Assembly (NCBI GenBank): GCA_025056865.1
Contig: JANWVO010000028.1
Span: 1-54,262 of the forward strand
Direction of reading: 5' to 3'
DNA: 54,262 nucleotides
Origin: Bryobacteraceae bacterium
GTDB lineage: Bacteria; Acidobacteriota; Terriglobia; Bryobacterales; Bryobacteraceae
Part shown: piece after piece, positions 2,645-53,024 of the stretch
How the letters are laid out: each line of letters starts with the position of its first letter
How positions within the stretch are numbered: the first letter of the stretch is position 1
Notes under the pieces: model-generated
What the model saw: the letters and a program-made list of their open reading frames with translations, nothing else
The model's database searches: none
What the model was told of the DNA's origin: nothing
Position numbers and translations under genes: made by a program

Positions 2645-3913
2645 TCAGCCGCCCGACGCGGCCGTGCCCTCCTCGCCGTGCCGCGGCCGGATCAGCAGCA
2701 CCAGAATCACCGAAAACGCCGCCACCCCCGCGAAAATGCCGAAAATCATCAGCAGCGGCACGTGGTGGTCCCGCAGCAGCCCGAAGCCCCAGTCCGCCAC
2801 CCCGCCGCAACTGATGCTCACCAGGTTCATCAGCCCGTAGCCTGTCGCCCGCACCTCCGGCCGCGCCACCTGGCACAGGATCGGCATGTTGTTCGCATCG
2901 AAAAAGCCCCAGCCCGCGCCGAACAGCACCAGGAACGCCACCGCCACCGGCAGCAGCCCCGTCTGCGGAGAAGCGCCCACCCCCATCATCGCCACCGCCA
3001 TCAGCAACACGCCGATCGCGCTCGTGTAAATCCGCCCGCGCACGTTGCGCCGCGTCCAGCGGTCCGCCAGCCATCCGCCCCCCAGCGCCGCCGCAATCGC
3101 CGCCAGCATCCAGTACAGCGTCGCCGACACCCCCGCCTGCCCCTGCCCGATGCCAAACTCCGCCTTCAGGATCGCCGGCATCCAGTCCCGCACAATCCAG
3201 CCCGCCATCGCCGGCAGCGTGAAATAGGCTGCCAGCAGGAGAAACGAACCATTGCCGAGCAGCTCCCGCAGCGCCGCCAGCGGAGCCGTCTGCCGCGCGC
3301 CCTCCGCCGCGCCAGCCGCCGGCGCGTTCCGCACCAGCACCAGCAGCGGCAGCGCGTACAGCGCCCCCGCCAGCCCGCAGATTTCAAACATCCAGCGCCA
3401 CCCCAGCTCCGGATGGTCCGCCGCATATCCGCTGAATCCCCCCAGAATCACCCCGGCATAAATCCCCATCTGATGCGCGCCCACCGCGCGCGACCGCGTC
3501 CGCCCCGGATGATAATCGGCAATCAGCGCCAGCGCCGCCGGAATGTAAAACGCCTCGCTGATGCCCATCAATGCCCGCGTCGCCAGCAGTTGCCCATACG
3601 TGGTGGCGTGCGCCGTCGCCCACGTCACCGCGCTCCACACGAACAGGCTGCCCGCAATCACGTGCCGCCGGCTGAACCGGTCCGCCAGATATCCGCCCAC
3701 CGGGCTCAGAAATGCGTACGTCCACTTGAAAAAGGCAAGGATTTTTCCCCAGTTGGCTTCGCTGCCGATGTCCGGGATGTCCTGCATCACCGAAAATTTC
3801 ATCGCCGCCAGCATCTGCCGGTCGAGATAGTTCAGCAGCGCCACCGGCACCAGCAGCGCCACCACGAACCAGGCATAGCCGGAACGGCGCGGATCAGGCC
3901 AAAGCATCGCCAC
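2645..3913 (-). CDS. MFS transporter
   Basis: This 422-residue protein has about twelve hydrophobic segments. It carries the Major Facilitator motif A in the loop after TM2 (GGYLADRFSRRH, near residue 79) and a related copy in the second half (GGGWLADRWTRRN). The N-terminal LNYLDRQMLAAM resembles the anion:cation symporter and Spinster-like branches, which carry organic anions or sugar acids. The substrate cannot be read from the sequence. It converges on the terminase ATPase gene with 26 bp between the stops. The next gene upstream on the same strand, an aldo/keto reductase, ends 258 bp away, so an operon is possible but not shown. Confidence 0.85.
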   Translation of the reverse strand: MAMLWPDPRRSGYAWFVVALLVPVALLNYLDRQMLAAMKFSVMQDIPDIGSEANWGKILAFFKWTYAFLSPVGGYLADRFSRRHVIAGSLFVWSAVTWATAHATTYGQLLATRALMGISEAFYIPAALALIADYHPGRTRSRAVGAHQMGIYAGVILGGFSGYAADHPELGWRWMFEICGLAGALYALPLLVLVRNAPAAGAAEGARQTAPLAALRELLGNGSFLLLAAYFTLPAMAGWIVRDWMPAILKAEFGIGQGQAGVSATLYWMLAAIAAALGGGWLADRWTRRNVRGRIYTSAIGVLLMAVAMMGVGASPQTGLLPVAVAFLVLFGAGWGFFDANNMPILCQVARPEVRATGYGLMNLVSISCGGVADWGFGLLRDHHVPLLMIFGIFAGVAAFSVILVLLIRPRHGEEGTAASGG

Positions 3914-28670: not shown

Positions 28671-28747
28671 GCGCCCGTAGCTCAGCTGGATAGAGCGTTT
28701 GCCTCCGGAGCAAAAGGTCGCAGGTTCGAATCCTGCCGGGCGTACCA
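28671..28747 (+). tRNA. tRNA-Arg (anticodon CCG), CCA encoded
   Basis: This is a full cloverleaf. The acceptor arm is GCGCCCG paired with CGGGCGT, the D-arm is AGCTCAGCTGGATAGAGC, and the anticodon loop CTCCGGA gives CCG. The T-arm has GGTTCGAATCC, followed by ACCA. It reads CGG codons. Confidence 0.95.
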
Positions 28748-34640: not shown

Positions 34641-35192
34641 TCAGCCGTTGCCTGCTGACCGTGGGGCGGCCTTCCGGGGCGCCGCGCGCTTGCCCGGCGT
34701 CTTGCGCCTCGCGGCGGTGCGCCGCCTTTCCTTCCTGAGGTTGATGGTGCCGCGGCAGTTCGGGGCGCCGCAGCGGCACTGCACCTGCTCGACGTCGGGG
34801 TCGAAGCGGTAGTCGACGGTGAGCTCCTCGCCGGGCTGGATGTCGCGGGCGGCGAAATAGAGGATATGGCCGCGGACGATGCGGGCGACGCAGTTGGGCT
34901 CGCAGCAGTGGTTGATGTATTCGGCGCCGCTGCCGCCGACGCTGCCGTCGATGGTCCAGTAGCTGTCGAGGGTGAAGAGGTAATTGTAGCGGCGCGAGCG
35001 GGCGCGCCGGGCCGTTTCCACACGGCTGATTTTCTCGCCGGTATATTCGATGATTTTCCTGCCTTTCGGGATGAATTCCTCCGCAAATACGCCCCAGCGG
35101 TGGATGCGGGAGGGGCGGATGGAAAGACGGAAACAGGCGTGCTTTTCAGAGATTTCCGGTACGCTTTTCCGGGAATTGCTGCGGTTCGGCAT
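34641..35192 (-). CDS. SET-domain protein methyltransferase with basic tail
   Basis: The protein is 183 residues. The SET core holds NHCCEPN (residues 94-100) and GEELTVDYRF (121-130), the S-adenosylmethionine and active-site motifs. A post-SET cysteine motif (CRCGAPNCRGTI, 139-150) binds zinc with a core cysteine in typical family members. Residues 152-183 form a Lys/Arg/Ala/Pro-rich tail that looks like histone H1 or bacterial nucleoid-protein tails. Family members methylate lysines on proteins. The natural target is not known; the tail suggests DNA association. Confidence 0.85.
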   Translation of the reverse strand: MPNRSNSRKSVPEISEKHACFRLSIRPSRIHRWGVFAEEFIPKGRKIIEYTGEKISRVETARRARSRRYNYLFTLDSYWTIDGSVGGSGAEYINHCCEPNCVARIVRGHILYFAARDIQPGEELTVDYRFDPDVEQVQCRCGAPNCRGTINLRKERRRTAARRKTPGKRAAPRKAAPRSAGNG

Positions 35193-39913: not shown

Positions 39914-40357
39914 TCAACGGGCTTGCCGGATGGCGGCGAGGATGTCTGCCACCGGAGGATCGCCCCGCCATGCGGCGGCGATGCGGCCCCCGGGAGTCAC
40001 CACATACACGGTGCGGCGCACGAAGCGCCAGAAGCCGGCTCGCCAGGCGCGGGCGATGCGGGCGCCTTCGTCCACGAGCAGCGGGAAGGGAAGCGCGAGA
40101 CGCGCAGCGAACCGTGCATGGCTGTCCGCCGAAGCGGGATTGACGCCGTAGACCACGGCGTTGGCGGCCTCGAATTCCGGAAACCGTTCCGCAATCCGGC
40201 CGAGCTGGCTCCGTCAGCCGGGCGAGTCATCGGCGGGATAGAAGACGAGCACGACGGGGCGCCCGCGCAGTTCGCTCAGGCGCACCGTGTAGCCCTGATG
40301 GTCCCGGGCCTCGAAGTCGGGCGCCGGCGCGCCAGCGGGCAGCGTGGGGCCGAACAT
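39914..40357 (-). CDS. Selenocysteine-containing peroxiredoxin (AhpC/TSA-Bcp family), TGA-recoded
   Basis: Read from ATG at 40357, the frame gives MFGPTLPAGAPAPDF, RLSELRGRPVVLVFYPADDSPG and then TGA at 40214-40216. It goes on in the same frame with RSQLGRIAERFPEFEAAN and ends, after 147 codons, at 39914-39916. In Bcp/AhpC-type enzymes the residue after YP.DDTPG is the peroxidatic cysteine, so the TGA stands at catalytic position 48. No other Cys is present, so it would be a 1-Sec enzyme needing outside thiols. C-terminal blocks PFPLLVDEGARIARAW and TVYVVTPGGRIAAAWRG are peroxiredoxin-like. A SECIS-like hairpin follows the TGA. The gene begins 10 bp after argR. Confidence 0.8.
40171..40198 (-). 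promoter_or_regulatory. Candidate bacterial SECIS element
   Basis: The hairpin starts 15 nt after the in-frame TGA. The upper stem is CGGAA/UUCCG with loop CGGU. One G-G mismatch separates it from a lower stem of six pairs (CGGAUU against AAUUCG, one of them G-U). The apical GG lies 29-30 nt past the TGA. Known bacterial SECIS elements place a guanine-bearing small loop at about this distance for SelB binding. Folding was done by eye. Confidence 0.7.
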
Positions 40358-40367
40358 GGCAGCGCGC

Positions 40368-40802
40368 CTACTGATTCACGTAAGACAGCAGGCGCTCGTG
40401 CACGGTCTTGGCGCGCTGGTTGTCCCAGCAGGCAACGAAGACGGTGTCGTCGCCCGCGACGGTGCCGGCGATTTCGGGCCAGTCCTCCTGGTCGAGGGCC
40501 ACGGCGAGGGAGTTGGCGCTGCCCGTCGAGGTCTTGAGGACCACGATGTGCTGCGCCAGCCGGACGTCGAGCAGGTATTCGGCCATGACCTGGGCGAGGC
40601 TCGGCCCCGTCGGATCCGGCAGGATTTCGCGGTAGCCGTCCGCAGTCTTCACGATGCCCATTTCGCGCAGGTCGCGCGAGAGCGTGACCTGGGTGACTTC
40701 AATGCCGAGCGCGCGCAGCTCCTGCGCGAGCTCTTCCTGCGTGTTGATCCTTTTGGAACGGACGAGTTTGAGGATCTGCCCCTGGCGGTAATTCTTCGTC
40801 AT
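40368..40802 (-). CDS. argR: Arginine repressor
   Basis: The protein is 144 residues. The N-terminal winged helix (ILKLVRSKRINTQEELAQEL, VTQVTLSRDLREMGIVK) is typical of ArgR/AhrC. The C-terminal domain for hexamer formation and arginine binding includes AQHIVVLKTSTGSANSLAVAL and GTVAGDDTVFVA. Its ATG overlaps the argH stop (ATGA). It would bind the tandem ARG boxes in front of argF and so control its own operon. Confidence 0.95.
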   Translation of the reverse strand: MTKNYRQGQILKLVRSKRINTQEELAQELRALGIEVTQVTLSRDLREMGIVKTADGYREILPDPTGPSLAQVMAEYLLDVRLAQHIVVLKTSTGSANSLAVALDQEDWPEIAGTVAGDDTVFVACWDNQRAKTVHERLLSYVNQ

Positions 40803-42160
40803 GACAGCGACTCCAGGCGCCGCCGCGCCTCGGAGAGGGCGGCGGCGACGGTTTGCGGCGCCGCGCCGCCGGGCACGGCGCGCGACTTCAGTCCTTCCTC
40901 TGGCGCCAGCAGGCGGGCCATCTCCGGCGTGAAGCGCGGGTCGAAGGCGTGCAGCTCTTCGCCCGTCCAATCCTCCGGTTGCCGCCCGCGGCGGATGCTT
41001 TCGAGCACCAACCGGCCGACCAACTGGTGGGCGTCGTGGAAAGGGACGCCCGTGCGCGCCAGCGCCTCGGCCAGATCGGTGGCCACCAGCCACCCCTCGG
41101 CGGCGGCCCGACGGGCCGGCTCCGGCCTGAGGCGGGCGGTTTCCACGACGGCGCGCGCCATTTCAAGGGACGCCGAGAGCTGGTCGGCGGCCTCGAACAG
41201 CGGCTCCTTATCTTCCTGCATATCGCGATTATAAGTGAGCGGCAGGCCTTTCATCGTCATGAATAGCGACGTGAAACAGCCGAAAACGCGGCCGCATTTT
41301 CCGCGGATGAGCTCGAGCGAATCGGGATTTTTTTTCTGCGGCATCAGCGAAGAGCCGCTGGTGACGCCGTCAGCGAGCTCCAGCCAGCCGAATTCGTCGG
41401 AGGAATAGAGAATCCAGTCCTCGGCCAGGCGCGAGAGGTGCAGCATGAGGATGGACGCGGCGGAGAGGAAGTCGAGGGCCCAATCGCGGTCGGCCGAGAC
41501 GTCCATCGAGTTGGGGGTGATGGCGTCGAAGCCGAGCTCGCGCGCGAGGGCCTCGCGGTCGATGGGGAAGCCGGCGCCGGCCAGCGCGCCCGAGCCGAGA
41601 GGCATGCGGTTGACGCGAGAGCGGGCCTGCGAAAGGCGCTCGTGGTCGCGCCAGAACATTTCGAAATAGGCCAGCAGATAATGCGCCCAGGTGACAGGCT
41701 GCGCGCGCCGCAGATGGGTGTAGCCGGGGATCACGGTTGCGGTGTGCGGCTCGGCCTGGGCGAGGAGGGCGCGCATGAGGGCGCGCAGGAGTCCGGCGCA
41801 GCGGTCGATTTCGCCGCGCAGCCAGAGGCGGGTGTCGAGGGAGACCTGCTCGTTGCGGGAGCGGCCCGTGTGGATCTTGGCTGCCACCTCGCCGGCGAGC
41901 TCGCGGAGCATGCGGATGACGTAGGTGTGGATGTCCTCGTCGGGAGCGTCGGGCGGCGGCGGGGGGATGCGGCCGAGGGCGCCGCAAAGGGCCTCGGCCT
42001 CGGCCGGCGTGAGGACGCCGGCGCGTTCGAGCGCGCGCGCCCAGGCCTTCGAACCGGCGATGTCGGCCTCGAACAGCCGCCGGTCGAAGTGCAGCGACCA
42101 GGAGAAACGCTGAAACGTCTCCGACGGTCCTTCCTCGAATCGTCCGCCCCAGAGCTTCAA
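40799..42160 (-). CDS. argH: Argininosuccinate lyase
   Basis: The protein is 453 residues and splits argininosuccinate into arginine and fumarate, the last step of arginine synthesis. The fumarase-superfamily signature GSSLMPQKKNPDSLELIRG stands near residue 275. It begins MKLWGGRFEEGPSETFQRF as in most ArgH, and the TGRSRNEQVSLDTRLWL block is present. Translation is coupled to argR by a 4-bp overlap. argF ends 16 bp upstream. Confidence 0.95.
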   Translation of the reverse strand: MKLWGGRFEEGPSETFQRFSWSLHFDRRLFEADIAGSKAWARALERAGVLTPAEAEALCGALGRIPPPPPDAPDEDIHTYVIRMLRELAGEVAAKIHTGRSRNEQVSLDTRLWLRGEIDRCAGLLRALMRALLAQAEPHTATVIPGYTHLRRAQPVTWAHYLLAYFEMFWRDHERLSQARSRVNRMPLGSGALAGAGFPIDREALARELGFDAITPNSMDVSADRDWALDFLSAASILMLHLSRLAEDWILYSSDEFGWLELADGVTSGSSLMPQKKNPDSLELIRGKCGRVFGCFTSLFMTMKGLPLTYNRDMQEDKEPLFEAADQLSASLEMARAVVETARLRPEPARRAAAEGWLVATDLAEALARTGVPFHDAHQLVGRLVLESIRRGRQPEDWTGEELHAFDPRFTPEMARLLAPEEGLKSRAVPGGAAPQTVAAALSEARRRLESLS

Positions 42161-42176: not shown

Positions 42177-43130
42177 CTAGTGTGCCGGACCGTCCAGCAG
42201 CATGAGCAGCAGCGCCTTCTGCGCGTGCAGCCGGTTTTCTGCCTGTTCGAAGACCAGCGAGACCGGCGACTCGATCACGTCCGTGGTCACCTCCTCTTCG
42301 CGGTGCGCCGGCAGGCAGTGCATGAAATAAGCGCCTGGCAGCGCCTTCGCCATCAGCTCCCGGTTCACCTGGTAGGCGGCAAACACGCGGGCGCGCTCGG
42401 CGGCTTCATGCTCAAAGCCCATGGACGCCCAGACGTCGGTGTAAACCGCGCCCGCGCCCCGCAACCCCTCGTCGAGATCGTTGGTCACTTCGATCAGGGC
42501 GCCGGTCTCTACGGCGAACTCGCGCGCCTTTGCCACGATTTCGGGTTTCGGCTCGTAGCCGGGCGGGGTGATGCAGGTGAAATCGAGCCCGAGGCGCGCC
42601 GCGTCGAGCATCAGCGAGTGCGCCACGTTGTTGCCGTCGCCCACGAAAGCAAGCTTGTGTCCGCGCCAGACGCCCCACTGCTCGCGGAGGGTCTGCATAT
42701 CGGCCAACGCCTGGCAGGGATGGTAGAGGTCCGACAGGGCGTTGACGACCGGGATCCTGGCATGGCGGGCCAGCGCATCGACCGTCTCCTGGGAGAACGT
42801 GCGCGCCACGATCAGATCCGTCCAGCGCTCCAGATTGCGCGCCACGTCCTCGACCGGCTCCCTTCCGCCGACCGGGCCGGTGTTTAAAATTGCATCGCCG
42901 CCGAGCTGCTTGGCCGCCACCTCGAACGTCATCCGCGTCCGCAGCGAAGGCTTTTCGAAAAGCAGGCTGAGAATCCTGCCGCGCAGCGCGAGGCGGTAGC
43001 GCTCCGGGTGGCGCTTGACGCGCTCGGCGAGGTCGAGCAACTGGCGCAGCTCCTCTGCGGTGATGTCGAGGTCCGAGGTGAGGTTCCCGGACCGCACCCG
43101 CGGGAAGGTCGAAGGAGGCGGTTCGGTCAT
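42177..43130 (-). CDS. argF: Ornithine carbamoyltransferase
   Basis: The protein is 317 residues and makes citrulline from ornithine and carbamoyl phosphate. The carbamoyl-phosphate loop is FEKPSLRTRMTFE (near residue 58). HPCQALAD and the ornithine-site MHCLPAHR are both present, the latter typical of OTC rather than aspartate carbamoyltransferase. N-acetylornithine-specific relatives cannot be fully excluded without alignment. It is the first gene of argF-argH-argR, followed by the peroxiredoxin. argG is not in the window. Confidence 0.9.
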   Translation of the reverse strand: MTEPPPSTFPRVRSGNLTSDLDITAEELRQLLDLAERVKRHPERYRLALRGRILSLLFEKPSLRTRMTFEVAAKQLGGDAILNTGPVGGREPVEDVARNLERWTDLIVARTFSQETVDALARHARIPVVNALSDLYHPCQALADMQTLREQWGVWRGHKLAFVGDGNNVAHSLMLDAARLGLDFTCITPPGYEPKPEIVAKAREFAVETGALIEVTNDLDEGLRGAGAVYTDVWASMGFEHEAAERARVFAAYQVNRELMAKALPGAYFMHCLPAHREEEVTTDVIESPVSLVFEQAENRLHAQKALLLMLLDGPAH

Positions 43131-43157: not shown

Positions 43158-43194
43158 AATGTATAACTATTCAACCAATTGTATAATTACACAG
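43158..43194 (-). promoter_or_regulatory. Two tandem ARG boxes upstream of argF
   Basis: TGTATAACTATTCA (43160-43173) and TGTATAATTACACA (43180-43193) are two AT-rich, imperfectly symmetric sites set 20 bp apart, about two helical turns. This resembles the paired 18-bp ARG boxes bound by ArgR hexamers. They begin 28 bp upstream of the argF ATG, in a short AT-rich patch in otherwise GC-rich DNA, and overlap the likely promoter. Confidence 0.65.
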
Positions 43195-43217
43195 CGAGCA
43201 GGTCCGGTCAAGCCGGC

Positions 43218-52867: not shown

Positions 52868-52917
52868 TGGCAGGACCGGCAGGACTCGAACCTGCGACCC
52901 TCTGCTTAGAAGGCAGA
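52868..52917 (-). other. 3' half of tRNA-Arg(UCU), candidate integrase attachment site
   Basis: On the minus strand the sequence has a complete anticodon arm (TCTGC, loop CTTCTAA, GCAGA; anticodon UCU), the variable loop, a perfect T-arm (GCAGG TTCGAGT CCTGC) and an acceptor 3' strand ending in CCA. Upstream there is no D-arm or matching acceptor 5' strand. Tyrosine integrases often use tRNA 3' halves as att sites, and an integrase gene starts 198 bp away. A functional full tRNA is therefore not expected here. Confidence 0.8.
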
Positions 52918-53024
52918 CTGAACCGCATCATTTCAGATCGATGCCCGTAACTGCAACATCCTGTTAGCCTGTGATTTACGTTCTTCTTGCTTCACCCGGC
53001 TTCATCGTGCATAATAAGCCCGAG

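Follow-up and report, generated by a model that had tools for sequence, protein, structure and literature searches.

On the minus strand of the stretch of DNA analysed here (the ‘window’, 54,262 nucleotides in all), three arginine genes and a peroxiredoxin gene follow one another in the order argF-argH-argR-prx (Table 1). The prx frame (40357-39914) runs from an ATG start to a terminal TGA and contains one internal TGA, at codon 48; when that codon is read as selenocysteine (Sec, U), the product is 147 amino acids long and carries no cysteine residue. This agrees with the original prediction of an unbroken frame, with a lone TGA just after the segment YPADDSPG and a product devoid of any other cysteine, and the 10 bp that it placed between argR and prx is also the distance we measure from the end of argR to the ATG. 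The expectation that conventional gene finding would see just a short C-terminal ORF was likewise sound: with translation table 11 and a minimum length of 60 amino acids, the sole ORF listed in the prx frame is one of 80 residues, opening on GTG (40156-39914). No Shine-Dalgarno sequence was seen by eye ahead of the prx ATG. Elsewhere in the window, the translation of 34641-35192 (minus strand) resembles a SET-domain protein by eye, and ARAGORN calls three tRNAs, all tRNA-Arg, at 3227-3321 (acg), 28671-28747 (ccg) and 52868-52945 (tct), the first of which is unmatched in Rfam and perhaps spurious.

Table 1. Features of the argF-argH-argR-prx locus, in window coordinates
Feature	Position	Strand	Remarks
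prx (AhpC/TSA peroxiredoxin, PrxQ/Bcp-like)	39914..40357	-	147 aa; predicted Sec at residue 48
Candidate bSECIS hairpin	40165..40202	-	-19.4 kcal/mol; 15 pairs; CGGU loop, 27 nt downstream of the TGA
In-frame TGA (codon 48)	40214..40216	-	at the peroxidatic Cys position of relatives
argR (arginine repressor)	40368..40802	-	10 nt between its end and the prx ATG
argH (argininosuccinate lyase)	40799..42160	-	4-nt overlap with argR
argF (ornithine carbamoyltransferase-type)	42177..43130	-	upstream of argH
ARG-box-like core 2	43160..43173	.	2 mismatches to TGAATWWWWATTCA
ARG-box-like core 1	43180..43193	.	3 mismatches; 20 nt from core 2
Sigma-70-like promoter match	43183..43211	-	over ARG-box-like core 1; 9/12 positions; 1 found against 0.3 expected (shuffles); weak

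The protein matches Pfam PF00578 over residues 9-128 (E 1.2e-32; 112.9 bits, passing the gathering cut-off of 26), and this match spans both sides of the TGA, where peroxiredoxin blocks had been predicted. The best NCBIfam models are PrxQ (73.3 bits, cut-off 260) and thiol peroxidase (58.6 bits, cut-off 140), both of them below their cut-offs, and the PrxU model (NF040737) gives 38.3 bits, far below its curated cut-off of 270. The active-site motif reads P41-A-D-D-S45-P-G-U48, which fits the pattern PxxxT/SxxC/U; all 130 family loci have T or S at residue 45, and 129 of them have P at residue 41. An AlphaFold2 model, built with Cys placed at position 48, has a pLDDT of 96.2 and a pTM of 0.91, and its best PDB matches in Foldseek are Prx, Bcp and AhpE structures, including Xanthomonas PrxQ and Burkholderia 5enu.

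Relatives were drawn from 200 genomes of the family, 180 of them with a prx-like match; roughly the best 130 of these 180 loci were compared, and the 50 weaker ones were left out. Among these best 130, codon 48 is TGA in 24, TGC in 94 and TGT in 12, and no other codon occurs; setting the window locus aside, TGA stands there in 23 of 129. The original prediction had placed the TGA at the peroxidatic cysteine and had suggested looking in homologues for Cys or Sec at this codon, and it is indeed the Cys codons of relatives that align with it, position 48 holding Cys or TGA codons only. A separate scan of named genome contigs, several of which are shared with the 130-locus set, gave 48 loci, with codon 48 readable in 45 of them (TGA in 13, TGC or TGT in 32). 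In every one of the 130 loci the frame is open for at least 48 codons ahead of codon 48 and for 92-111 codons beyond it, with no other early stop in any of them; the scattered stops that would have marked a pseudogene are thus not seen among the relatives. One record (L020) is titled as a Bordetella parapertussis MAG and has a prx near the Bryobacterales ones; the title is probably misassigned.

The substitution pattern bears on the same point, as dN is lower than dS on both sides of codon 48 in six of six close pairs (five Sec pairs and one Cys pair). Between the window gene and that of G099, a same-genus genome in one contig whose prx is 85% identical and also has TGA at codon 48, dN/dS is 0.055/0.741 before codon 48 and 0.100/0.669 after it. 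Judged from these rates, purifying selection acts on the sequence beyond the TGA, which is unexpected for a frame ending at codon 48.

The genome that carries the locus (a 4.18 Mb draft in 61 contigs, with a completeness of 100% by the tool’s figure) has selB (352.5 bits), selA (494.2 bits) and selD (353.1 bits), all over their curated cut-offs, together with a tRNA-Sec (72.6 bits in Rfam; anticodon tca according to ARAGORN), such that the Sec machinery on which the original prediction depended is present in all four of its components; two further Rfam hits over the tRNA-Sec cut-off are tRNA-Ser. The selD gene (L059:1501-2406, minus strand; G000:C47:5348-6253) itself has an in-frame TGA, within AAG*ASKL, which we take to be the active-site position of SelD, and it is probably a second Sec gene of the same genome, the selenophosphate synthetase itself being a selenoprotein.

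Across the 200 family genomes, selA is found over its cut-off in 164 and at E 1e-60 in 166. At the latter threshold it is present in 22 of the 24 Sec-prx genomes, and in 89 of the 106 Cys-prx genomes (17 without); since most Cys genomes also have selA, its association with Sec-prx is weak, and Cys at position 48 is compatible with retention of the machinery. The two Sec-prx genomes without selA at E 1e-60 (G164 and G157) are both 88% complete drafts with selB over cut-off; tRNA-Sec was found in G164, and was not found at E 1e-9 in G157, a TGA-prx genome that counts against the Sec reading. The Cys-prx genome G104 (locus L178, G104:C3; 98% complete, four contigs) shows none of the three components sought, namely selA (at E 1e-60), selB (over its cut-off) and tRNA-Sec (at E 1e-9), and the same is true of G024, G089 and G119, which also have a Cys prx. 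In the tree, the Cys prx of G104 sits within a group of Sec genes, and this genome offers a natural Sec/Cys contrast.

Other readings of the TGA have to be weighed against these findings. For the TGA to be a newly arisen nonsense mutation, or a misread TGC or TGT, a single base change would suffice, and the assembly is a draft; saying this, the recurrence of TGA at this one codon across relatives, with no other early stop, makes a sequencing error unlikely, selection persists beyond it, and the one-contig genome of the same genus shares it, on which account we reject mutation or error and give it next to no credence. Were the TGA a true stop, yielding a 47-residue peptide and an 80-residue C-terminal piece from the internal GTG, or acting in regulatory termination, one could point to the ORF that table 11 provides and to the fact that partial termination is normal at Sec codons. 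Yet neither piece alone would unite the active-site residue with the full fold, relatives exchange codon 48 for Cys codons only, and the Sec machinery is there in the genome; separate N- and C-terminal products are rejected on the selection seen on both sides of codon 48, and we hold termination in either form to be very improbable.

Readthrough with a residue other than Sec, be it through general reassignment of UGA or through near-cognate insertion of Cys or Trp, is harder to tell apart by conservation, as the pattern would look the same. General reassignment is nonetheless rejected, because both argH and prx end in TGA and because Cys codons alone replace codon 48 in relatives; with tRNA-Sec(tca), selA and selB present as well, we consider non-Sec readthrough exceedingly unlikely. 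Given the family assignment and predicted fold, the exchange of TGA, TGC and TGT at one codon, the Sec machinery and the selection past the TGA, it is very probable that prx encodes a functional selenoprotein: a PrxQ/Bcp-like enzyme with Sec48 as the peroxidatic residue, in which UGA would be decoded by SelB and Sec-tRNA with the aid of a downstream hairpin.

A candidate for that hairpin lies just past the TGA and falls inside all four bSECIS limits printed in PMC13188914. Stability was assessed in each gene over a 39-nt stretch starting 15 nt downstream of where codon 48 begins, against 200 synonymous recodings per gene; the mean z is -1.90 for the 24 TGA genes versus +0.10 for the 106 Cys genes, with z below -1 in 22 of the former and 15 of the latter (Mann-Whitney p 2.5e-10, which is optimistic since the loci are related). 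With the stretch shifted to four control offsets and 60 recodings at each, the group difference (TGA minus Cys) is -0.29, +0.18, +0.90 and +0.43. A rule-based bSECIS scan proved unspecific at its default limit, passing 19/24 TGA genes and 72/106 Cys genes too, and at -16 kcal/mol it passes 5/24 and 4/106, respectively. For the window region taken singly, dinucleotide shuffles give a z of only -0.72, with 41 of 200 shuffles folding as well. RNAalifold found no common fold in a gap-free alignment of the 24 TGA genes (0.0 kcal/mol, against a mean of -0.15 for random Cys sets of 24), nor did the 10 Sec genes of the argR-linked clade described below (-1.06 kcal/mol) exceed the mean of -1.31 in random Cys sets of 10; the other 14 TGA genes gave -2.62 kcal/mol, a figure that stands without a control set of that size, and a conserved structure is thus not evident from these alignments.

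In a tree of the prx genes (a quick method; 130 rows, 144 columns and 54 open forks), the window gene falls within a clade of 13 (SH-aLRT 91), ten with Sec and three with Cys. The history of Sec and Cys on this tree needs at least six changes, only one of which is forced by starred branches. What sets the clade apart is position 53, which is Cys in 116 of the 117 genes outside it, forming a C/U-x4-C pair, and is G in seven, S in five and C in one of the 13 genes inside it; the window protein has Gly, and the usual resolving cysteine is therefore absent from 12/13 clade genes. The 14 Sec genes outside the clade all keep C53. No second cysteine occurs anywhere in the window protein or in L075, L080, L081 and L083, whilst other members have cysteines elsewhere (at 107 or 109, for example) that might serve to resolve. 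The three Cys48 genes of the clade (L082, L085 and L086) have Ser53 and cysteines at 88, 107 and 138, which are perhaps a relocated resolving cysteine, and their genomes retain selA, selB and tRNA-Sec. A second Sec-prx clade, with C53 beside U48, comprises L123, L132, L144, L148, L151, L152, L181, L182, L184 and L185, and three of its ten genes lie 64 nt after argR. The proposal that the window enzyme is a 1-Sec peroxiredoxin fits its predicted sequence, as no other Cys is found in the chain.

Of the 130 loci, 21 have argR ending no more than 100 nt ahead of prx, namely 11 of the 13 in the clade and 10 of the 117 outside it (three of the 130, with less than 250 nt upstream, could not be judged); in the remaining two clade members argR lies farther upstream of prx, at a distance of about 0.7 kb (G180) and 1.7 kb (G164). 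Scored against a 14-nt core that we take as the ARG-box consensus (TGAATWWWWATTCA), the DNA before argF has a tandem pair of ARG-box-like cores, the only such pair in the 54 kb of the window. Of 17 genomes, 16 have such a pair ahead of argF and one, G011, has a single core; these 17 were taken from 23 genomes with argR upstream, leaving out G127 (where the sequence ends inside argF), G150, G136, G007, G111 and G133. The pair supports, at the level of sequence, ArgR control of the arginine genes, and the tie to arginine, which in the original prediction rested on position, is now backed by this conserved feature upstream of argF. ArgR sites in E. coli consist of two 18-bp boxes 3 bp apart, according to PMC5839063.

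Whether prx shares in that control is a more evenly contested matter. Prx may well contain Sec and yet sit after argR merely for convenience, with a promoter of its own and no arginine regulation: outside the clade argR adjacency is infrequent, within it two of the 13 members have loosened it, and arginine genes would be expected to have boxes ahead of argF no matter what follows them. Against this, argR and prx are on the same strand with a mere 10-nt gap, in which a simple minus-strand scan, of little power here, found no promoter-like or terminator-like match. We see an independent promoter as a serious possibility that falls somewhat short of an even chance.

We propose the following model for a Sec-containing prx under ArgR. 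SelB and Sec-tRNA would insert Sec at UGA 48, helped by the hairpin just downstream; Sec48, within the motif P41-x-x-x-S45-x-x-U48, would then act as the nucleophile that reduces hydroperoxides, itself becoming a selenenic acid which, as the chain has no resolving Cys, would depend on an external thiol or redoxin for its reduction, in a 1-Sec cycle. As the last gene transcribed in an ArgR-controlled arginine operon, prx would furnish a peroxidase whose level tracks arginine status.

Bacterial Sec-peroxiredoxins are a named family (PMC1794560, PMC13188914), which the latter assigns to PF00578 with the motif PxxxTxxU, citing the Eubacterium acidaminophilum enzyme as its ref. 83. The window protein resembles them in its AhpC/TSA family and in having Sec at the peroxidatic position of P-x-x-x-T/S-x-x-U (with S in this case), but differs in its low PrxU score, in lacking any other Cys and in being encoded last, after argR. 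It is likewise close to PrxQ/Bcp, for which its best NCBIfam match, the Foldseek matches and the C/U48 plus C53 of its out-of-clade relatives all speak, whereas it has Sec in place of Cys, Gly53 and no resolving Cys, with a score below the family cut-off; unlike an atypical 2-Cys PrxQ, it has no resolving cysteine in the chain. The 1-Cys AhpE of Mycobacterium tuberculosis (1xvw, 4x0x) also relies on a single nucleophile and has a fold similar to the predicted one (TM 0.88-0.92), but is about 26% identical, uses Cys, not Sec, and presumably has a different operon setting. The arrangement argF-argH-argR, preceded by two box-like cores at a spacing of 20 nt, is in keeping with ArgR regulon operons that have tandem ARG boxes upstream of their arg genes (PMC5839063), from which it departs in the predicted selenoprotein peroxidase gene that follows argR. 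Our literature search, which covered few subscription papers, found no ArgR-linked peroxiredoxin operon (judged by title) and no paper on a Sec-peroxiredoxin in Acidobacteriota, the matches for Bryobacter selenoproteins being unrelated by title. Sec-peroxiredoxins as such are already known; it is the Sec-only clade and its ArgR setting that we did not find described in the literature searched.

Synthesising the above, we suggest, as a reading that we hold to be evenly poised, that in one lineage of Bryobacteraceae a Sec-containing PrxQ-type enzyme shed its resolving cysteine, leaving a peroxidase that relies on Sec alone, and that its gene came to be fixed at the end of an ArgR-controlled arginine operon, such that arginine status would set both peroxide defence and the demand for selenium. 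Because the standard code shrinks prx to an 80-residue fragment, this clade of active-site selenoproteins will probably be missed or misannotated. The family also provides a natural series in which to ask why Sec is kept, running from Sec with C53, through Sec without C53 and Cys without C53, to Cys in genomes without detected machinery; and, given the ARG-box setting, whether arginine, selenium and peroxide are linked can be tested directly.
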